Shown in pieces: positions 11,884-29,743 of a DNA stretch of 64,000 nt (position 1 is the first letter of the stretch; each line of letters starts with the position of its first letter). The notes under the pieces were generated by a model. It was not told the DNA's origin. It made no database searches and worked only from the letters and a program-made list of their open reading frames with translations. A program made the translations under genes and the position numbers. The stretch lies in the NCBI RefSeq assembly GCF_000024465.1, contig NC_014010.1:1426001-1490000 (forward strand). The letters run 5' to 3'. The stretch is from Candidatus Puniceispirillum marinum IMCC1322. GTDB lineage: Bacteria > Pseudomonadota > Alphaproteobacteria > Puniceispirillales > Puniceispirillaceae.

Positions 11884-12187
11884 TAGTTTGCCCCAAAAAA
11901 TCTCAGAGCCCTATCAAGGAGCAGCCTTATGCTGTTTTCCCCCGTCCCCCCTTATGTCTGTCCTGCAGGAAAAAATACCCCACAAGACACATAAGAGGGG
12001 CATGGGTGGGTTCTAGGAGAAGCTTGGGAAGAACTAGGGTGAGCTTGAGGAAACCGCTTGGTGTACACAGGGTATACCAAATGCGCCTGTTGACAGCTGG
12101 TGGTGGTCTCTTAAACTGGCGGTATGACTTGAGTTTACTCTAAGTTAGCGCAGTATTAGGGAAATGAACCCGTCTCGGGTGCACCAT
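11884..12187 (-). repeat. Terminal inverted repeat of element 1, right copy (IR1-R)
   Basis: Reverse complement of 1014-1317, differing at one noticed position (12183). Its inner end is 86 bp upstream of the methyltransferase start. The shared motifs lie at 12082-12094 (GTCAACAGGC type) and 12112-12120 (GCCAGTTTA type) on the minus strand. The outer tip reads GGGTGCACCAT on the plus strand, like a tRNA CCA end. Confidence 0.95.
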
Positions 12188-18173: not shown

Positions 18174-20480
18174 TTAGTCATCAAGGCCATCAAAAAGGCC
18201 CTTCAAAAATGGCTTATAATGTTTCCATTGTTGCGAACTGCCTTGATACACTTTATCTCTTACTTGCACGTTAGATGCTGTTGTGACTCTGCGCCTATTA
18301 TTTTGGGGGGATAAACATTTTTCATCCCAGTCTAAATCGAGATACGTAATTAATTTATGTGTCTCGTCCGTCTGGTTCACTGTAAGCCGTTCGTAATCAA
18401 GGGTATAAATCCTTTTACCAAGCGCCGTGTCCCAAAACGCCATGAGGCTTTCATAGAGCTTGTGGTACCGAACGACATCACCAAGATCGTAACAGTAGCC
18501 AAGGCCATTGGATTTGAAATACTGTTTATAATTCGCCCAACATACGGCAGCCGGATTTCTTTTTACGTGAACTATTTTAGCTTCTGGGAATGCGGCGGCA
18601 AGCAACCCTATGTAACGAAAATTTTGGGGCATCTTGTCTGTAACCATCAGATTGCCATTGGACAAATTCTGCAATTTTGACAGATATTGTTCCCTGAATT
18701 TATGTATGGCATCTGTACTGATTGAAGTTGCGCCTCTGGCGATGAACCCACCATATTGAGCCACGAACGATAACTCACCAGCCCCCGTAACGTTTGAATG
18801 CGAGGAGATTATTTGTTCAACTAGCGTTGTGCCAGAGCGCGGCATGCCTACAATAAAAACTGGTGTTGGTTGATGGGCAAGATTACCAATATCTAGGGCG
18901 TTTTTTTCTATTTTCGGATAGCTGGATTGAAGTTGAGAAAATAGCTCAACATCCTGACTAATATTGTAATTTAAAAACTTCTTACGTAGCGCATTACCTT
19001 CACAATAATGAGTAAAAGCTTGCTCAAAATCCTCTAAATCCTCACTCGCCTTAGCTAAAGCAAAATTTATATGGCAACGTTGCTCTTCTGGCATTTTTTC
19101 GTCACGATATAGTTCTTGAAGCTTTGAATATTGGTCATCCTTTGTGAGGAATTTCTTCATTGTCGTAAGGTAATGGTAGGCTTTGGCATAACCCGGTTGC
19201 AACGCGATCGCGTCATTATAGCGTGCTTCTGCCACGTCTAATCGACCTAATTCCTGGAGCATTAAACCCAGATTAGCATGGGCAGCGACATAACCTGGTT
19301 GCAACGCGATCGCGTCATTATAGCTTGCTTCAGCCTCGTCTAATCGACCTAGTTCACGGCGTGTGCCAGCCAAATTAAAATGGGCTTTGGCATAGTCGGG
19401 CTGTAATGCTATCGCTTGTTCATAACTGGCCTCAGCCTCATCTAACCTACCCAAATCATGGAGCGTGCTAGCCAAGTTGAAATGGGCTTTGGCATAATCA
19501 GGTTGCAAGACAATCGCGTGCTTAAAATTTGCTTCGGCCGCATCTAATTTGGCAAGGCTTTGGCGCGTTATTCCCAAATTGATATGAGCATCTGTAAAGG
19601 TGGGGATCAACGCTATCACTTGCATATAGCTTACTTCAGCCTCATCTAATCTGCCCAGATCGTGAAGCGTGCTGGCCAAATTGAAATGGGCTTTGGCATA
19701 ATCAGGTTGCAAGGCAATCGCTTGTTTATAACTGGCTTCAGCCTCGCTTAATCTACCACATTCTTGGAGCGTGGCTGCTAAGTTGCCGTGCGCTTCCGCA
19801 TAGTCAGGTTGCAAGGCAATCGCTTGCTTATAACTGGCTTCAGCCTCGTCCAATCTTACTAGTTTCTGGAGTATCACACCCAAATTGCAATGAGCTTCGG
19901 CGTCTTTAGGAGATAATGTAACTGTCATTTGGATGGCGGTCAGCGCTTCCGCGTTTCGGTTCGTTTGCCCCAATATTGCTCCTAGCACCTTCCAGCCAAA
20001 TTGATGTCTGGGAAATGTCTTAGTAAGTGATAGCGCCTGCTTTTCAGCGTCACCATATTGTCCGGCTTGATAGCATTTCAATAAACTATCGAGTTGTGCC
20101 TGAGGTGGTGTTTTCCCTGCGACTGGCAATTTTGGAGACAAGGACAGAGCTTCCAATTTTTGGCTATCAAACCCGATCTTTTTTGCTTTCTTTATCGCAC
20201 GCTTGGCATCTTTAATTTGATTGTTTTTGATGAGTGCATCAACGTAGCTAAGCCAAAACTGTTCAACTTTTGGATTTACGTCTAAAGCCTTTTGAAACAA
20301 CTGTAATGCCGTTTCAGACTTGCCCATTGCGATAGCTATCAACCCTAAATTATGGTTAGCATCTGGATGCTTTGGCTGGGATTGCAATATAGCCTGATAA
20401 ATGCGTTCAGCTTTTTGGAGATTCCCTTGATTATGTGCGGCAACGCCATGCTGCAATGCTTGTTGAATTGTTAATTCCAT
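18174..20480 (-). CDS. TPR-repeat protein with C-terminal sulfotransferase domain
   Basis: A 768-residue fusion. Residues 1-435 are tetratricopeptide repeats; from about 197 to 435 there are seven nearly identical 34-residue units (DEAEASY, AIALQPDYA, AHFNLA). Residues 540-765 form a sulfotransferase domain with the 5'-phosphosulfate loop VGMPRSGTTLVEQII (PRSGTT at 547-552) and a 3'-phosphate segment, RNPAAVCWANYKQYF. Such fusions are common in marine bacteria and are thought to transfer sulfate from PAPS to surface glycans or peptides, but the acceptor is unknown. The strong resemblance between repeat units suggests recent repeat expansion. It is related to the 584-aa protein at 22603-24357, especially across the catalytic domain. 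Confidence 0.92.
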   Translation of the reverse strand: MELTIQQALQHGVAAHNQGNLQKAERIYQAILQSQPKHPDANHNLGLIAIAMGKSETALQLFQKALDVNPKVEQFWLSYVDALIKNNQIKDAKRAIKKAKKIGFDSQKLEALSLSPKLPVAGKTPPQAQLDSLLKCYQAGQYGDAEKQALSLTKTFPRHQFGWKVLGAILGQTNRNAEALTAIQMTVTLSPKDAEAHCNLGVILQKLVRLDEAEASYKQAIALQPDYAEAHGNLAATLQECGRLSEAEASYKQAIALQPDYAKAHFNLASTLHDLGRLDEAEVSYMQVIALIPTFTDAHINLGITRQSLAKLDAAEANFKHAIVLQPDYAKAHFNLASTLHDLGRLDEAEASYEQAIALQPDYAKAHFNLAGTRRELGRLDEAEASYNDAIALQPGYVAAHANLGLMLQELGRLDVAEARYNDAIALQPGYAKAYHYLTTMKKFLTKDDQYSKLQELYRDEKMPEEQRCHINFALAKASEDLEDFEQAFTHYCEGNALRKKFLNYNISQDVELFSQLQSSYPKIEKNALDIGNLAHQPTPVFIVGMPRSGTTLVEQIISSHSNVTGAGELSFVAQYGGFIARGATSISTDAIHKFREQYLSKLQNLSNGNLMVTDKMPQNFRYIGLLAAAFPEAKIVHVKRNPAAVCWANYKQYFKSNGLGYCYDLGDVVRYHKLYESLMAFWDTALGKRIYTLDYERLTVNQTDETHKLITYLDLDWDEKCLSPQNNRRRVTTASNVQVRDKVYQGSSQQWKHYKPFLKGLFDGLDD
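19176..19892 (-). repeat. Seven tandem 102-bp TPR-coding repeats
   Basis: Within the TPR-sulfotransferase gene, 34-codon units repeat with high nucleotide similarity. For example, the CGATCGCGTCATTATAG segment occurs identically in two adjacent units. Copy-number change by slippage or recombination is likely. Confidence 0.75.
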
Positions 20481-20767: not shown

Positions 20768-20942
20768 CAAATATGTCATAGGCGAGCTTACATCTTCAGC
20801 AACTCAAAAAGTGATTCTAGAAAAGATGGGACATAGAAATTGCGCAGAGGTAAATCTTTCTAGATTTTCTGATGGCAATAGAAGGCCATTTGCGTCGGTT
20901 GTTGACCCTGAAATAATCGTGCTTGCCGAGGAGGTTCTTTAG
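20768..20942 (+). pseudogene. 3' fragment of a GNAT acetyltransferase gene (duplicated piece)
   Basis: The last 57 codons (KYVIGELTSSATQKVILEKM and following, to a TAG stop) copy the end of the broken gene at 24556-25179. The frame can be extended upstream to 20697, but the sequence before 20768 is unrelated to the acetyltransferase, so the fragment has lost its catalytic core and start. Confidence 0.8.
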
Positions 20943-21698
20943 CCTTATCGCCCGAAGCTATCATTGGAGCTTATGTGTTCGTGCCGACCACTCTCTGGCC
21001 TCCGGTTGCGGGGCTGGTGATCATATTCGGAATTGATTGGGCATGTAGTTGCAGAGATGAGCTTTGTCTAGCGCTTGTATTCTGGCTGATTTTCTGTCTC
21101 TATCATACATAACAGATATCAATTTTTGTGGTTTGATTGAATGCCCCCGCAGTTGCAGATAAAACTGCCCAAGGATAAAGAAAAGCTTTTGCTAGCTTTG
21201 TTCCATAAGGGCAAATTTTCCACTATCATCCAGCAAGTTCAGGATTTAAGACTGCATTTTCCAAAAGACGTGTTTCTGTTAAACATTCTGGGCGCGTCTT
21301 ATGCGCACTGTAACGACTTTACAAGCGCTATTGAGACATACAGCCAGGCCATCAGCATTAGTCCCAAGGATGCTGAATTACATTTCAATCTTGGTAGGGC
21401 CAAGAAAATGACTGGGGATATAGATGGCGCACTGACAAGCTATCAACAAGCCCTGCGGCTTAATCCTAGAAATGCTACTATCTACAACAATATTGGCAAT
21501 TTATGGCTGAGCAAGGGCAACTTGCCCAAAGCTGTAGACAATTTACAAATGAGCATCAAATATAAGTCAGACTTTGCTTTTGCCCATTTTAACTTGGGAT
21601 GTGCATTTCAGGCACAGCAAAGATTTGATGATGCTATAGACAGTTACAACAAAGCCATTCTACACAAGCCAGATTACTTTGAAGCCCAACATAATCTG
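20768..21698 (+). repeat. 931-bp inverted duplication, left copy (IR3-L)
   Basis: Reverse complement of 23800-24730, with no net indel (paired coordinates sum to 45498) and no mismatch in the segments I compared; the encoded 186-residue N-termini are identical. It contains the 3' end of a broken acetyltransferase gene, the shared promoter region and the first 186 codons of the TPR gene. The right copy is continuous with the rest of the acetyltransferase gene, so the left copy is probably the derived one. Confidence 0.95.
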
Positions 21699-22547
21699 AT
21701 TGATATTTTGACATATCACATTCCCAACGCCGATGGCTCCAATTCCTTGATAAAGGCCAACAATGCTATCCGCTCCATTAAAATGAACGATATAAGCCAA
21801 TCACTGTTTTTAAACCGCGATATAAAGGCTTATTACAAACAAATGTATGATATTGTTTCGCTATATGATGTTGAAAAACCTTGGCCATATTCGCAGATTT
21901 ATCAAAGAAATGATGTGGATCTAAACTGCAAAAGACATAAATCTATTTTTGAAAAACATAATGTCATCCCAAAATTTTGTTTTGGGTGCTATAAAGTGGA
22001 AATTCTTCCAATTAATGTGGCTGATCTTTTTAAGACAGTATTTCTTTTCAGCAAGCTGAAACTTCAAAACAACAATGCTAGGAAATGTTTTGTTGAACTA
22101 AGACCAAAAATTTCAGGAACCTATAAGGGACTGATTTACTGCTCAAGCCTTGATGAGGCTATTAGTGCAAAGCAAGCACTGGCTGATTTCACAGCCCCCC
22201 ATTTTCAAAAAGCACCGCAAATAAGCATAAAACGGGGTTGTAGCGAATTTGGTGAGTTATATCCGGACTATAAACATATAAACTATACTGGCGCACAAAA
22301 AATGATCTATCCTGAAGCATGGGCTGCTGCTGAAGATATCTATGATAGGCAGCAAACCTTTTCTGAAAAACCACAAATCACCTTGTCAATTTTGAGCCTT
22401 AGCAATGCGCTAACCATGCTAAATTGGCTTAGCTATGCTAAAATTATAGGTGATAGTAGTTATCACGACATAAGCAATAATGTTTCAGTCTCCAAGTATA
22501 TTGAGACGAATTTGAAAAACCAGATCACAAAGCGTGTTTTATCTTAA
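21141..22547 (+). CDS. TPR protein with unrecognised cysteine-containing C-terminal domain
   Basis: A 468-residue protein. Residues 1-186 are TPRs identical to those of the leftward gene at 22603-24357, because they lie in the 931-bp inverted duplication. From residue 187 it is completely different: no sulfotransferase motifs, but a domain with KFCFGCYKVE (278-287), RKCFVELRPKISGTYKG (314-330), LIYC (331-334) and IKRGCSEFGELYPDY (363-377). The five cysteines at 280, 283, 316, 334 and 367 could bind a metal or form a catalytic centre; I do not recognise the family. It may be a chimera made when the duplication joined a TPR start to an older C-terminus, or an original gene that received the TPR region by conversion. 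Confidence 0.85.
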   Translation: MPPQLQIKLPKDKEKLLLALFHKGKFSTIIQQVQDLRLHFPKDVFLLNILGASYAHCNDFTSAIETYSQAISISPKDAELHFNLGRAKKMTGDIDGALTSYQQALRLNPRNATIYNNIGNLWLSKGNLPKAVDNLQMSIKYKSDFAFAHFNLGCAFQAQQRFDDAIDSYNKAILHKPDYFEAQHNLIDILTYHIPNADGSNSLIKANNAIRSIKMNDISQSLFLNRDIKAYYKQMYDIVSLYDVEKPWPYSQIYQRNDVDLNCKRHKSIFEKHNVIPKFCFGCYKVEILPINVADLFKTVFLFSKLKLQNNNARKCFVELRPKISGTYKGLIYCSSLDEAISAKQALADFTAPHFQKAPQISIKRGCSEFGELYPDYKHINYTGAQKMIYPEAWAAAEDIYDRQQTFSEKPQITLSILSLSNALTMLNWLSYAKIIGDSSYHDISNNVSVSKYIETNLKNQITKRVLS

Positions 22548-22602
22548 GAGCTCATGCAAAATATCATCAAGGTTGCCAGACCCGTTTGCTTATGACGCAT
22601 TT

Positions 22603-24357
22603 TTATGAGTCTAATATCTCAATCATAGGCTTTAAAAATGCTTGATATGCTTCCCATGAGTCAGAAGATCCCTGGTAAATTTTATTGCGCACTTGCATGC
22701 TAGACGCGGTTGTTACTATTGATTTTTGTTTCTGAATATCTAGATAAGAACGATCCCAGCGTAGTCCTAAATAATGGAATAATTGCTGAGCTTCATCTTC
22801 GGGGCTTTCGGTTAGTTTTTCATAGTTCAGACTATAAATTGCCCTAGGAAACACTTTCTGCCAGAACTTCATCATGTTGTTATATAAAATATAATAATGT
22901 GCGATATCCTGCATATCAAAGGTGAAAGCCATACCCTCTGCTGGAAAGTAGGTTTTAAAATTTGACCAACAGATTGCTGCTGGTTTTCTGGTTATATGAA
23001 CAATTTTGGCGTGAGGAAACGCTTTTTTAATAAAGCCAATCCATCTAAAGTTAAGTGGCATTTTGTCTGTAAAAAATGCTGGATTACCGTCATTCTCAAG
23101 ATATTTTAAATAACGATCACGTATATTGATTATCGTTTTATTTTTATTTTTATTTTTCTGTTTATACCACCCACTCTCATGCACTGATTTATTCATATAT
23201 TCAAGCTCACCCAAAGCGGTGACGTCAGGGTGGGCTGCGATAATTTGCTCAACTAAGGTGGTTCCTGACCGAGGCATGCCCACTATAAAAATTGGCTGTG
23301 GCTCGAAACTTTCAATTCTTAAATTCATATCTCCAATATCTGAATTAAAATATTTTAGTATATTATTGAAAATTGTTACATCCTTATTAAATGTATAATT
23401 AAGCTGACATTTTCTGTTTGAATTGGCTGAAATCAGATATTGCATGCCTGCTTGCGCGTTCTGATTGTCAAATTCTATTTGTGCCAATGCATAGTCAAAG
23501 AACATTCTATCTGGGCTTCCTTTTAACGAAGCCATTCTCTTATCAAGAATATGTTTAAAAATTGGGTCGGTACGTGCTACTTTTTCCACTGACGTATAAT
23601 GGTAATATGGTTCGGCATAGTTTGTTTGTTTTTTAATTGATTCGATATAAAGGACTTTTGCGCGTTCTCGATTTCCCATCGCCCGTTCCAAGTTGCCAAG
23701 ACTGTTGTAAGACAGTGCAAAATTTGGATTTATCTTAATGGCCGCTTCAAAGGCTTTGCGCGCATGTACAAAATTTCGCACCTCAAAACATACAACACCC
23801 AGATTATGTTGGGCTTCAAAGTAATCTGGCTTGTGTAGAATGGCTTTGTTGTAACTGTCTATAGCATCATCAAATCTTTGCTGTGCCTGAAATGCACATC
23901 CCAAGTTAAAATGGGCAAAAGCAAAGTCTGACTTATATTTGATGCTCATTTGTAAATTGTCTACAGCTTTGGGCAAGTTGCCCTTGCTCAGCCATAAATT
24001 GCCAATATTGTTGTAGATAGTAGCATTTCTAGGATTAAGCCGCAGGGCTTGTTGATAGCTTGTCAGTGCGCCATCTATATCCCCAGTCATTTTCTTGGCC
24101 CTACCAAGATTGAAATGTAATTCAGCATCCTTGGGACTAATGCTGATGGCCTGGCTGTATGTCTCAATAGCGCTTGTAAAGTCGTTACAGTGCGCATAAG
24201 ACGCGCCCAGAATGTTTAACAGAAACACGTCTTTTGGAAAATGCAGTCTTAAATCCTGAACTTGCTGGATGATAGTGGAAAATTTGCCCTTATGGAACAA
24301 AGCTAGCAAAAGCTTTTCTTTATCCTTGGGCAGTTTTATCTGCAACTGCGGGGGCAT
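22603..24357 (-). CDS. TPR-repeat protein with C-terminal sulfotransferase domain
   Basis: 584 residues: TPRs from 15 to about 250, then a sulfotransferase domain with FIVGMPRSGTTLVEQIIA (PRSGTT at 362-367), KMPLNFRWIGFIKKAFP and a 3'-phosphate segment, RKPAAICWSNFKTYFP. It is predicted to use PAPS as donor; the acceptor is unknown. It is convergent with the preceding TPR gene across 55 bp, and shares its promoter region and first 186 codons with that gene through the inverted duplication. It parallels the larger protein at 18174-20480, so the region carries two sulfotransferase fusions. Confidence 0.92.
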   Translation of the reverse strand: MPPQLQIKLPKDKEKLLLALFHKGKFSTIIQQVQDLRLHFPKDVFLLNILGASYAHCNDFTSAIETYSQAISISPKDAELHFNLGRAKKMTGDIDGALTSYQQALRLNPRNATIYNNIGNLWLSKGNLPKAVDNLQMSIKYKSDFAFAHFNLGCAFQAQQRFDDAIDSYNKAILHKPDYFEAQHNLGVVCFEVRNFVHARKAFEAAIKINPNFALSYNSLGNLERAMGNRERAKVLYIESIKKQTNYAEPYYHYTSVEKVARTDPIFKHILDKRMASLKGSPDRMFFDYALAQIEFDNQNAQAGMQYLISANSNRKCQLNYTFNKDVTIFNNILKYFNSDIGDMNLRIESFEPQPIFIVGMPRSGTTLVEQIIAAHPDVTALGELEYMNKSVHESGWYKQKNKNKNKTIINIRDRYLKYLENDGNPAFFTDKMPLNFRWIGFIKKAFPHAKIVHITRKPAAICWSNFKTYFPAEGMAFTFDMQDIAHYYILYNNMMKFWQKVFPRAIYSLNYEKLTESPEDEAQQLFHYLGLRWDRSYLDIQKQKSIVTTASSMQVRNKIYQGSSDSWEAYQAFLKPMIEILDS

Positions 24358-24730
24358 TCAATCAAACCACAAAAATTGATATCTGTTATGTATGATAGAG
24401 ACAGAAAATCAGCCAGAATACAAGCGCTAGACAAAGCTCATCTCTGCAACTACATGCCCAATCAATTCCGAATATGATCACCAGCCCCGCAACCGGAGGC
24501 CAGAGAGTGGTCGGCACGAACACATAAGCTCCAATGATAGCTTCGGGCGATAAGGCTAAAGAACCTCCTCGGCAAGCACGATTATTTCAGGGTCAACAAC
24601 CGACGCAAATGGCCTTCTATTGCCATCAGAAAATCTAGAAAGATTTACCTCTGCGCAATTTCTATGTCCCATCTTTTCTAGAATCACTTTTTGAGTTGCT
24701 GAAGATGTAAGCTCGCCTATGACATATTTG
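23800..24730 (-). repeat. 931-bp inverted duplication, right copy (IR3-R)
   Basis: Pairs with 20768-21698. Outer end at 24730, inside the acetyltransferase pseudogene; inner end at 23800, inside the TPR region of the sulfotransferase gene. The 2101 bp between the copies could invert by homologous recombination without changing either protein, because both copies encode the same N-terminus. Confidence 0.95.
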
Positions 24731-25179
24731 TACCCAAGTAATTTTGTTCGGCGACTGATCTCTTTACGCAGCGCTTGCTAAATTCCCTTAGACGTGTGAG
24801 GTAGCGATACTGCGGCCATATCAACAAGCAAAGCGTCTCCCATAATCAGATGCCTCTGTTGTAAATAGCTTGTCTCCAGCATTTGAAACAACTTAGAGAT
24901 CAATTTGTATTTTTCTTGAAACGGAAGGTGATTCTTAGGGCGATTCTTCAGTAAGTCTCTAGCTACAAGGACGCCGAGTAATTCGCCACTCGTCGCATCT
25001 GTTGCCGCCAAGGATAAGCCATCTTTGATGTCGTCAAAAAAAGTAGGCCGAAGATAGGCTCTGTATTCTTCAAGATCGGTATTTAGGGCAACATGCAAAA
25101 CACTTTAACTCGCAAAGTTACTGCTCGCCAAGGCAAAAGCCTTTTCGGCCAAATGCGCGTCCAGCGTCCTGATTTCCAT
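24556..25179 (-). pseudogene. GNAT-type acetyltransferase gene with two in-frame stops
   Basis: One continuous frame of about 207 codons starts at ATG 25179 (MEIRTLDAHLAEK) and ends at TAG 24556. It is interrupted by TAA at 25105-25107 and TAG at 24778-24780, with no frame change. Across the stops the protein reads on smoothly: SSNFAS then SVLHVALNTDLEEY, and HTSKGI then QALRKEISRRTKLLGYKY. The pattern, including the QALRKE helix after a glycine turn, is that of a GNAT N-acetyltransferase. It is probably dead; the substrate is unknown. Confidence 0.8.
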
Positions 25180-25704
25180 CTGCATCATTATTAAAGGTTA
25201 GCAGATCGATCATCAAAATTACAATGTGACCCTCGAGCCCCTTTTGGCATCACTGTTTGTCTCAACGGCAAGGGAACGATTCGATCCTTATTCAATATTT
25301 AGTAGCATTTGGTTACTTTAAATACTATATCTAGAAAAGTTATCTGTTTTGCTTGACTTAAAAAAAGAACAAAGGTAGAACAAAAATAGAGGTTCGCCAC
25401 TTAGTCTCCCTAACAAAAGGCAAAAAGACATGAATGATTCAACATTTGACGCCAGCAGACTTTCGATCACTAACGGCCTCTCATCCGGATATCGGAAAAA
25501 GACGAGAAATGTGCAAATGAAAGCAATGATCACGCTGCTGACTTGTGGAACTTTAGTTTACGTAATTACCAATCATATATTTTAGTCATCATAATCGGTA
25601 ATTAAAGTCTCCTAACCACCAATATACGCACGCATTGGCCAAACTTTGGTTCAACGTTAACAGATCAGGTGCCGTGATACATTACTAAGATTGGAAGGTG
25701 AATA
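25180..25704. other. 525 bp without a recognisable gene
   Basis: AT-rich spacer between the acetyltransferase pseudogene and the DUF1330 gene. A 71-codon minus-strand frame (25318-25533) has no family resemblance or ribosome site and I do not call it. An AAGGTG ribosome site near 25694-25699 serves the next gene. Confidence 0.4.
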
Positions 25705-26001: not shown

Positions 26002-26484
26002 TCAGCACTCAATTTTCCGCATCCATTTAGCCAGTATATCCACGCTACAGCCTTTACCACAGGCATGACCGATGTCTATTGTGTCCCTCTCTTAGACTAT
26101 GCCTAAAGCTATCGATAACGCAGCCCTCTGGTACCCTTGGTTTAAGCCACTTAATTAAAGCCGCACTGGCGGAGTTAGCGTTGCACTTGGTCTCATTACA
26201 GTATCTTGCAAAGGCAAATTTTAGACCTCCATCAACAATCCTCAATGCCGCTTCATAAGAGCTCCCCACCAACGGAATATCTCTCTCACTAGCAATATTA
26301 TCTTCAGGGATAAATATCCCGATGAAGGGATTGAGTTAGCAATACCAAGTTCTTTTGAAGCTAGGTTATAAATAGCCTTAATAGAGGACAGAACACGCCT
26401 GACGAAGTGATAAATACCAAAACGGACACGGATATATGAGGATTGATTGTACGTCATTCTGCACGACACCTGACCTGTTAGCAC
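26002..26484 (-). pseudogene. Degenerate tyrosine integrase (older copy at tRNA-Phe)
   Basis: Fragments of an integrase like the one at 28464-29630 survive: an N-terminus (MTYNQSSYIRVRFGIYHFVRR) at 26484-26390, a middle piece with VGSSYEAALRIVDGG and NANSASAALIKWLKPRV, the HxxR region as DSFRHSLRE, and a C-terminus KGCSVDILAKWMRKIE ending at 26002. There are internal deletions and frameshifts. Where the active gene has SSYGKG, this reads HACGKG, so the likely nucleophilic tyrosine is lost. The catalytic part is closer to the integrase of element 1, the N-terminus closer to that of element 2. It marks an earlier insertion at the same tRNA. Confidence 0.9.
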
Positions 26485-26537
26485 AATAAATGCTTATATA
26501 TCAGTCATGTAGGTGAAGTAGTGGTGCCCGGGGGCGG
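26391..26537 (-). repeat. 147-bp direct repeat, left copy (old attachment junction)
   Basis: Matches 29537-29683 with about six mismatches. It covers the integrase 5' end, its upstream region and the last 16-17 bp of tRNA-Phe (26521-26537). It shows that two related elements inserted one after the other at the same tRNA 3' end. Confidence 0.9.
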
Positions 26538-26902
26538 TAGTAGATTCCCACACTAGGCACTTACATGCACAGCTACATAAGCATTACAGCCAGTTTACGT
26601 ATCATTGATACACAGTCAACAGGCACACTCTGTGCGTCAGTTTGTACGTCAGTCAGAAATCTTCGGGTAATGGAATAGACCTATATATCCTTACCGTTAT
26701 CAGTACAGAGTAAATGACCAGCTAAGTGCTATCTGAGTTTCGTATGAGTATAGGGTAAGTGGGTGTGTAGGTGATATTCATCTCAACCCTGAATAACAGT
26801 TATCTGTAGCAGCTAAACTGCATTAATAATCTTCATAAGACACGTATCTATCATCACTTACATGACCCATGCAGAAATCTTCTGGCAATGGAAAGAACCT
26901 AC
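26520..26902 (+). repeat. Terminal inverted repeat of element 2, left copy (IR2-L)
   Basis: 383 bp, the exact reverse complement of 27996-28378 as far as I could compare (coordinates sum to 54898). The outer tip is the tRNA-Phe 3' end (GTGGTGCCCGGGGGCGG, 26521-26537). GCCAGTTTA is at 26589-26597 and GTCAACAGGCACA at 26615-26627, the motifs shared with IR1. It also holds two 29-bp direct repeats at 26654-26682 and 26872-26900 with five differences (both start CAGAAATCTTC). Confidence 0.97.
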
Positions 26903-27995: not shown

Positions 27996-28378
27996 GTAGG
28001 TTCTTTCCATTGCCAGAAGATTTCTGCATGGGTCATGTAAGTGATGATAGATACGTGTCTTATGAAGATTATTAATGCAGTTTAGCTGCTACAGATAACT
28101 GTTATTCAGGGTTGAGATGAATATCACCTACACACCCACTTACCCTATACTCATACGAAACTCAGATAGCACTTAGCTGGTCATTTACTCTGTACTGATA
28201 ACGGTAAGGATATATAGGTCTATTCCATTACCCGAAGATTTCTGACTGACGTACAAACTGACGCACAGAGTGTGCCTGTTGACTGTGTATCAATGATACG
28301 TAAACTGGCTGTAATGCTTATGTAGCTGTGCATGTAAGTGCCTAGTGTGGGAATCTACTACCGCCCCCGGGCACCACT
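27996..28378 (-). repeat. Terminal inverted repeat of element 2, right copy (IR2-R)
   Basis: Mirror of 26520-26902. The inverted copy of the tRNA-Phe end is at 28361-28377; the shared motifs are at 28271-28283 and 28301-28309 on the minus strand. The integrase stop codon lies 86 bp beyond its outer end. The 27704-27995 interval before it has no gene. Confidence 0.97.
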
Positions 28379-28463: not shown

Positions 28464-29630
28464 CTACTCTTCCATCAACTTCATCCACTTAGCCAATACA
28501 GGCAGTTCATAGCCTTTACCATAGGATGAACCAATAGAGGATAATGACCATCCTCCTATCTGGTCGATAATATCTGATGGACATTCAACAGCACGAAGCC
28601 TATCTCTCATAGAATGTCGAAGACTATGTACAACTGTATGTTCAGTGACTCTTGGCTTCATCCACTTGTTCAGTGCCGCACTGGCTGAGTTGGCATTGCA
28701 TGTCTGGCCATCACAATAGCGCGGAAAGGCATAGCTACTATCAGACTCTTGTAGCCTTTGCGCCGCCCACAGAGACGCACCAACCAGTGGTATATGTCTC
28801 GCACTGCTCTTGGTCTTCAAACGTCTCCATGAGTGCGCTTTGAGGTCTATATATGGCACAGGAGTATCAAGGATGATGTCGTCCTTATTTAGTCCTGCCG
28901 CTTCTGCTAGGCGCATTCCGGTGTCACTGATAAGAGCAAGTAGCCAACGCATCTCATCATCCTCACGCTTACAGGCATGTTGCAACTCTATCAGCTTGTC
29001 TTGCGGTATTGGTTGCCTGTCTTGGCTGTCGTCTCTTTCTGGCATGTAGGTCTTGGCAAACCCATTAGCACCTTCAATGCCATGCTCTTGCATCACAAGA
29101 TTAATGATTGACCTGATTGACCCAAAGATGCGTTTGACACTGCCAACAGCAAGACCTTTATCAAATAGGTAATCACGGAATGCTGATGCGTCAGATGATG
29201 AGTATGACGTGATGGCTCTATTGCCCAATGCTTCTGCTACATATTTGCCATTACGTTTAGCGGCACGAATGAATGTGGGTGTCTGCTTGTGTGATTTGAG
29301 GCGAAGGTAAATATCAACAGCCTCCATCATCGTTGGGCTGTCATCCACGACATCATCTTTATCATCAATGACCAGATGTAATGCTGGTACATCCATCTTC
29401 TGCAATCTTAGCCCATGCCAGTAATCATTTAATCGCTGGCTAATAGACTGGGCAGAACGAGTGGCTGTTTTAGCTGATTTGGTACGAAGGCTGATACTGA
29501 CTCTATCACTGCGGTAATGCTGTTTAACATCAGCAGGAACACGCCTGACGAAGTGATAGACACCAAAACGGACACGTATATATGAGGATTGATTGTACGT
29601 CATTTTGTACGTCACCTGACCTGTTAGCAC
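28464..29630 (-). CDS. Tyrosine recombinase/integrase of element 2
   Basis: A complete 388-residue phage-type integrase. The N-terminal arm-binding region begins MTYNQSSYIRVRFGVYHFVRR (a second possible start at 29603). The core-binding SAM-like region covers about 100-195, and the catalytic domain has Arg in TGMRLAEAAG, Lys in LKTKSSARHIPL, HSLRHSMRDR, GGWS and tyrosines in SSYGKGYE. It lies between IR2-R and tRNA-Phe, its 5' end 37 bp from the tRNA 3' end, the usual place for an enzyme that uses that tRNA as attB. It probably catalyses integration and excision, and perhaps inversion between inverted core sites. Confidence 0.95.
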   Translation of the reverse strand: MLTGQVTYKMTYNQSSYIRVRFGVYHFVRRVPADVKQHYRSDRVSISLRTKSAKTATRSAQSISQRLNDYWHGLRLQKMDVPALHLVIDDKDDVVDDSPTMMEAVDIYLRLKSHKQTPTFIRAAKRNGKYVAEALGNRAITSYSSSDASAFRDYLFDKGLAVGSVKRIFGSIRSIINLVMQEHGIEGANGFAKTYMPERDDSQDRQPIPQDKLIELQHACKREDDEMRWLLALISDTGMRLAEAAGLNKDDIILDTPVPYIDLKAHSWRRLKTKSSARHIPLVGASLWAAQRLQESDSSYAFPRYCDGQTCNANSASAALNKWMKPRVTEHTVVHSLRHSMRDRLRAVECPSDIIDQIGGWSLSSIGSSYGKGYELPVLAKWMKLMEE

Positions 29631-29667
29631 AATAAATGCTTATATATCAGTCATGTAGGTGAAGTAG

Positions 29668-29683
<16 letters not shown>
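29537..29683 (-). repeat. 147-bp direct repeat, right copy (tRNA-Phe attachment site)
   Basis: Partner of 26391-26537. The 3' end of tRNA-Phe forms its tRNA-proximal 17 bp, the probable attachment core. Confidence 0.9.

Positions 29684-29743
<60 letters not shown>

Follow-up and report, generated by a model that had tools for sequence, protein, structure and literature searches.

Identical TPR heads on a sulfotransferase gene and its convergent neighbour in a SAR116 bacterium

Candidatus Puniceispirillum marinum IMCC1322 is a cultured SAR116 strain (PMC3368413). In a 64-kb stretch of its genome (NC_014010.1, positions 1,426,001 to 1,490,000; hereafter the window) two convergent open reading frames, ORF A and ORF B, start with the same array of tetratricopeptide repeats (TPR) and end in different domains. 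ORF B continues into a sulfotransferase domain, and ORF A into a conserved domain without a database family that we call X. We favour, with a probability of roughly 0.6, a scenario in which ectopic recombination put the head of the sulfotransferase gene in place of the head of a TPR-X gene that already lay convergent to it. Four observations carry this reading: the two copies are perfect, the direction of copying can be read from a flanking gene, the junction lies in register at the natural TPR/X border, and the same end state recurs elsewhere.

The inverted pair and the direction of copying

The features involved are listed below by window position.

20768-21698, plus strand: arm 1 (copy), with the end of an acetyltransferase-like gene, an intergenic stretch and the TPR head of ORF A; 100% identical to arm 2
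20768-20942, plus strand: terminal piece of the acetyltransferase-like gene, copied in truncated form within arm 1; the direction marker
21141-22547, plus strand: ORF A, 468 residues, TPR head and X tail
21699-22547, plus strand: X tail of ORF A, a conserved domain that no database family covers; Cys 77, 94, 97 and 181 (tail numbering) are invariant
21699-23799, 2101 bp: middle between the arms; inverting it in silico alters neither protein
22603-24357, minus strand: ORF B, 584 residues, TPR and Sulfotransfer_3
23800-24730, minus strand: arm 2 (original), with the end of the acetyltransferase-like gene, an intergenic stretch and the TPR head of ORF B; the upstream gene crosses 24730
24559-25188, minus strand: decayed acetyltransferase-like gene with TAA and TAG inside; 24730 is an arm border only, with no break in the sequence

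The arms are exact reverse complements (931/931 bp, no differences); not even the non-coding and decayed portions deviate. Their length excludes a chance origin. A search of the closed 2,753,527-bp genome with the arm returned these two copies and no third. This bears out a first-pass annotation of the window, which had described a 931-bp inverted duplication giving two TPR genes an identical 186-residue start. ORF A and ORF B lie 55 bp apart, and the duplicated tract reaches 373 bp upstream of their starts. The annotation had also credited the duplicated stretch with one promoter for both genes; a sigma-70-like scan of the upstream part found none, and "promoter region" is a presumptive label for it. 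When 21699-23799 is inverted in silico, both proteins stay intact, as had been predicted, and the 373 bp upstream of each do not change either. Since such an inversion is silent for both proteins, flipping of the 2.1-kb middle is possible in principle and may pass unnoticed.

After the shared head, ORF B carries two further TPR-like units and then Sulfotransfer_3 (PF13469; E 4e-43, 148.7 bits against a Pfam cut-off of 27), and several TPR models pass as well. It therefore has the composition that defines a TPR-sulfotransferase, TPR repeats followed by Sulfotransfer_3 above the Pfam cut-off. The tail of ORF A (about 280 residues) matches no family in Pfam, NCBIfam or PHROG.

The direction of copying is recorded by the decayed gene upstream of ORF B. 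An intact relative from another genus of the same family is 63% identical to it over 210 residues, stop-free, and aligns without gaps on both sides of 24730; both stops of the decayed gene fall inside the alignable stretch. A second relative is 40% identical. Because the decayed gene and its intact relative span the border of arm 2, and arm 1 holds the gene's end only, the comparison marks arm 2 as the original context and arm 1 as the copy, the direction already proposed from the broken gene. The outer border of arm 1 falls in unrelated DNA. The name acetyltransferase comes from one weak PDB match (E 0.03); Pfam gave no match.

The X family, its sulfotransferase partners and shared heads elsewhere

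A profile search for X recovered 46 loci, one of them distant (L081), from SAR11, Prochlorococcus, SUP05, SAR116, Rhodobacteraceae, Magnetococcales and Gammaproteobacteria. An alignment of 45 of these sequences (30-40% identity over about 280 residues) contains an invariant pattern of Cys, Arg and Lys, including Cys 77, 94, 97 and 181, and the tail of ORF A shares this pattern with its homologues. In most of them X sits behind TPR repeats, and ORF A joins head and tail at the same TPR/X boundary; a few genomes carry X without TPR (L070, L071). TPR-X is, judged from this distribution, an old and widespread architecture (SAR11, Prochlorococcus, SUP05, SAR116, Magnetococcales). Given this age and a junction at the natural boundary, we regard ORF A as something other than a chance chimera, and the event most likely replaced a head instead of building a new chimera. 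The first-pass annotation had seen the second tail as an unrelated cysteine-bearing domain. The cysteines proved to be invariant; that the end is an arbitrary one did not hold up.

Within the class X is rare, as the profile hit 1 of 385 alphaproteobacterial genomes (the present one). It was absent from 15 other genomes of the genus to which L069, discussed below, belongs. An AlphaFold model of the X tail reached pLDDT 92 and pTM 0.90. A fold search with it gave weak matches alone, the best solved fold being eIF4E-like at Z 5.7, below the level of relatedness, and comparison of its sequence with solved structures gave a single chance-level match. The eIF4E-like match and one to herpesvirus LANA (E 0.07) were taken as common topology and set aside. 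The tail had no match in phage and plasmid collections, and a first viral scan for X found none; a deeper profile brought up three distant relatives. These (L132, L133 and L134; 26-31% identity) are stand-alone genes in phage contigs whose neighbours read like structural genes, and they belong to no Pfam or PHROG family.

X genes tend to lie near sulfotransferase genes. An open reading frame with a sulfotransferase P-loop-like motif was found within 5 kb in 27/45 X loci (L061 doubtful) and in 1/20 control stretches of 20 kb, all from the genome of the window; many SAR11 loci are related, and the counts are not independent events. Several of these frames were confirmed by Pfam as Sulfotransfer_1 or Sulfotransfer_3. 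In the SAR116 genome AG-893-M18 an X gene and a sulfotransferase gene converge, 83 bp apart and without a repeat, and the convergent layout, with a short gap or none, is found also in seven SAR11 loci. A Magnetococcales protein combines TPR, X, TPR and Sulfotransfer_3 in a single chain, and another consists of TPR, Glyco_transf_41, TPR and X. Adjacency and the one fusion protein link X to sulfotransferases, as far as gene order and protein architecture can tell. This gene partnership appears to be undescribed; a search of one literature collection on TPR-sulfotransferases or SAR11 TPR islands found nothing. As a separate observation, a Magnetococcales locus (L105:8030-19756) holds a cluster of long TPR proteins with varied ends, one of which reads, by eye, as B12-binding radical SAM-like.

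Self-comparison of all loci revealed three further cases in which a TPR-X gene and the neighbouring TPR-sulfotransferase gene share a head, each as a direct repeat: L037 (946 bp, 100%), L069 (1024 bp, 98.8%) and L058 (583 bp, 79%). L037 and L069 are single-cell genomes, and L037, which ends within its repeat, is the weakest case. The last 280 bp of the L069 repeat hold 11 of its 12 differences, and the first ~740 bp are almost perfect; its sulfotransferase copy is interrupted by stops. The inner junctions are in register within the last TPR before X, at QHNL in the window, AYNN in L069 and AIKLR in L037. When X heads were compared with 44 sulfotransferase heads, the neighbour ranked first in the window, L037, L069, L058, L048 and L006. 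Head sharing by X/sulfotransferase pairs evidently arose independently in two or three other lineages.

The window contains one more gene of the sulfotransferase type.

18174-20480, minus strand: second TPR-sulfotransferase gene, 768 residues; its head is just 31% identical to the shared head

Five tandem TPR units of 102 bp (67-75% identity) occur within this gene, at 19200-19898.

How the head may have been replaced

From the observations above we infer an earlier TPR-X gene at the site, a copying mechanism and, further below, a function. The starting point would have been a TPR-X gene on the plus strand facing a TPR-sulfotransferase gene on the minus strand, inside an island associated with tRNA-Phe. 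Ectopic recombination between the two TPR arrays, by conversion or break-induced copying, would then have moved 931 bp from the sulfotransferase gene. This tract, which runs outward from the TPR unit ending in QHNL, across the start and the upstream stretch and into the end of the next gene, would have replaced the original head of TPR-X. Copying would have begun in homology, at the inner end, where a shared TPR motif allows pairing in register, and ended in unrelated DNA at the outer end. With the two genes in convergent orientation, the copies end up as an inverted repeat. As an event, the duplication is of a known kind, ordinary recombination between neighbouring paralogues.

Several points weigh against this reading. 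No close relative preserves the arrangement that preceded the duplication: 0/60 other genomes of the family carry the shared head, the genus consists of one genome, no relative has both genes at the same site, and the high-identity tract is seen in this genome only. A remnant of the older head was sought to the left of arm 1, where just two marginal matches of 12-18 residues turned up. The perfect identity of the arms fits a recent copy and continued exchange equally. SAR11 pairs keep unrelated heads, the neighbour ranking first in 0/10 of those with a detectable local match; the control for the X/sulfotransferase neighbourhood was drawn from a single genome; and X has no known fold match, its conserved cysteines being the one biochemical clue. 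Because ten SAR11 neighbour pairs have unrelated heads, coupling of X with a sulfotransferase does not require a shared head. The proposal of a modular system, in which one TPR scaffold drives alternative catalytic ends, stands in part: like heads on different catalytic ends do recur elsewhere, but the SAR11 pairs do without them.

The same end state could have been reached by simple inverted duplication, if the 931-bp piece landed before a headless X fragment and so created a new chimeric gene. The outer border of arm 1 in unrelated DNA, the failure to detect an earlier head to its left and the few genomes with X but without TPR (L070, L071) would all suit such an insertion. We nevertheless consider it unlikely, as head and tail are joined in frame and in register, precisely where dozens of TPR-X genes pass from TPR to X, a point that a blind insertion would rarely hit, and an identical end state arose in other lineages. 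It is somewhat easier to imagine, though still doubtful, that the heads stay identical over the long term through recurrent RecA-mediated exchange between the arms, in line with the continuing recombination proposed in the first-pass annotation. Identity extends even into non-coding and decayed parts, the inversion is silent, and the L069 pattern, near-perfect over the first ~740 bp with differences clustered behind, resembles a conversion tract; yet a recent single copy would yield the same picture, and the heads in L058 have drifted to 79%.

Perfect inverted arms, with an integrase gene 4 kb away, might also suggest an invertible switch in which the 2.1-kb middle is flipped for phase variation. 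This is scarcely credible. A flip alters neither protein and merely exchanges identical upstream stretches, arms made of 931 bp of coding DNA are unlike the short sites that recombinases use, and L037 and L069 have their pairs in direct orientation, which makes flipping impossible. An artefact of assembly or culture also seems very improbable to us. Inverted repeats that are long and perfect pose problems for assembly, and the window contains three, but the sequence is a single closed contig from a cultured strain with four distinct flanks, and the analogous pair in L069 has 12 differences, so that copy is no duplicated-read error.

Under head replacement by ectopic recombination, the matching heads would be a side effect of exchange between TPR arrays, one that may be of use without being necessary. 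X and the sulfotransferase likely act in one modification pathway, each on a target-binding TPR scaffold. We would go further only speculatively: they could be two enzymes of an undescribed protein- or surface-modification pathway of marine bacteria, carried as a cassette between tRNA sites, whose common TPR targeting head passes time and again from one enzyme gene to its partner so that both enzymes reach the same target. As a lead, the duplication counts for less than the undescribed X domain and the link between X and sulfotransferases, as X is a conserved domain without a family in very abundant ocean bacteria (SAR11, Prochlorococcus, SAR116), beside tRNA genes. Pairs that share a head also offer a natural test, an identical targeting part with different catalytic ends, of whether the TPR head picks the target.

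The tRNA island setting and comparison with known systems

To the right of the pair lie the following two genes.

28464-29630, minus strand: tyrosine-recombinase-like integrase, 37 bp from tRNA-Phe; identified by reading the sequence, not by family search
29668-29743, minus strand: tRNA-Phe; 26520-26537 and 28361-28378 repeat an 18-bp core of its 3' end

An integrase gene next to a tRNA gene, the signature of a tRNA-integrated island, is thus present. The tRNA-Phe cores lie at 29666, 28361 and 26520, none was found to the left of the pair within the window, and an integrase remnant follows the last core. This arrangement places the X/sulfotransferase pair beside a tRNA island and probably inside it. 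A direct repeat of 147 bp (26391-26537 and 29537-29683, 96%) includes the integrase start and the tRNA core, and looks like the result of two insertions, one island behind the other at tRNA-Phe, with the integrase of the left island decayed.

Inverted pairs of at least 100 bp and at least 90% identity are concentrated here, with 3 in the 64-kb window vs 0 in 400 kb sampled from the same genome (20 stretches of 20 kb). The second is also perfect (26520-26902 and 27996-28378; 383 bp, 1093 bp apart), and its outer arm ends are the 18-bp tRNA-Phe core. The third (1014-1317 and 11884-12187; 304 bp, 99.7%, two copies in the genome) encloses a 10.6-kb block of minus-strand genes.

Proximity to tRNA genes is common in the family: 20/45 X genes lie within 300 bp of one (Gly, Met, Thr, Glu, Leu or Gln; loci L036-L079), vs 0/16 TPR-sulfotransferase loci without X, which have short flanks. 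In L069 tRNA-Thr and a 40-bp repeat of its 3' end (93%) enclose the whole X/sulfotransferase pair (L069:4695-9500) in a 4.7-kb islet without an integrase, and in L038 the X gene is flanked by two tRNA-Glu genes. Many SAR11 loci have X and the tRNA in divergent orientation, and insertion at the 3' end therefore does not explain all cases.

Like ectopic gene conversion between paralogues, the event left a high-identity tract confined to the homologous part of neighbouring genes, with untouched tails; unlike it, the outer end extends 373 bp upstream of the start codon, into the next gene, and visible homology guided one end only. ORF B and the gene at 18174-20480 have the architecture of TPR-sulfotransferases (PF13469 behind TPR), whereas ORF A combines the shared head with an X tail. 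TPR-OGT glycosyltransferases (Glyco_transf_41) likewise place a modifying enzyme on a TPR scaffold, and one Magnetococcales protein joins TPR-GT41 to TPR-X, but ORF A and ORF B have no GT41 domain. The setting recalls the tRNA-associated islands and tycheposons that marine bacteria carry (PMC10872708, for Methylophilaceae). It differs from them in that the far island end was not found within the window and the L069 islet has no integrase of its own; the resemblance lies in the tRNA-Phe gene and integrase next to the pair, in the recurring cores of the tRNA 3' end there and, in L069, in a pair enclosed by tRNA-Thr and a copy of its 3' end.

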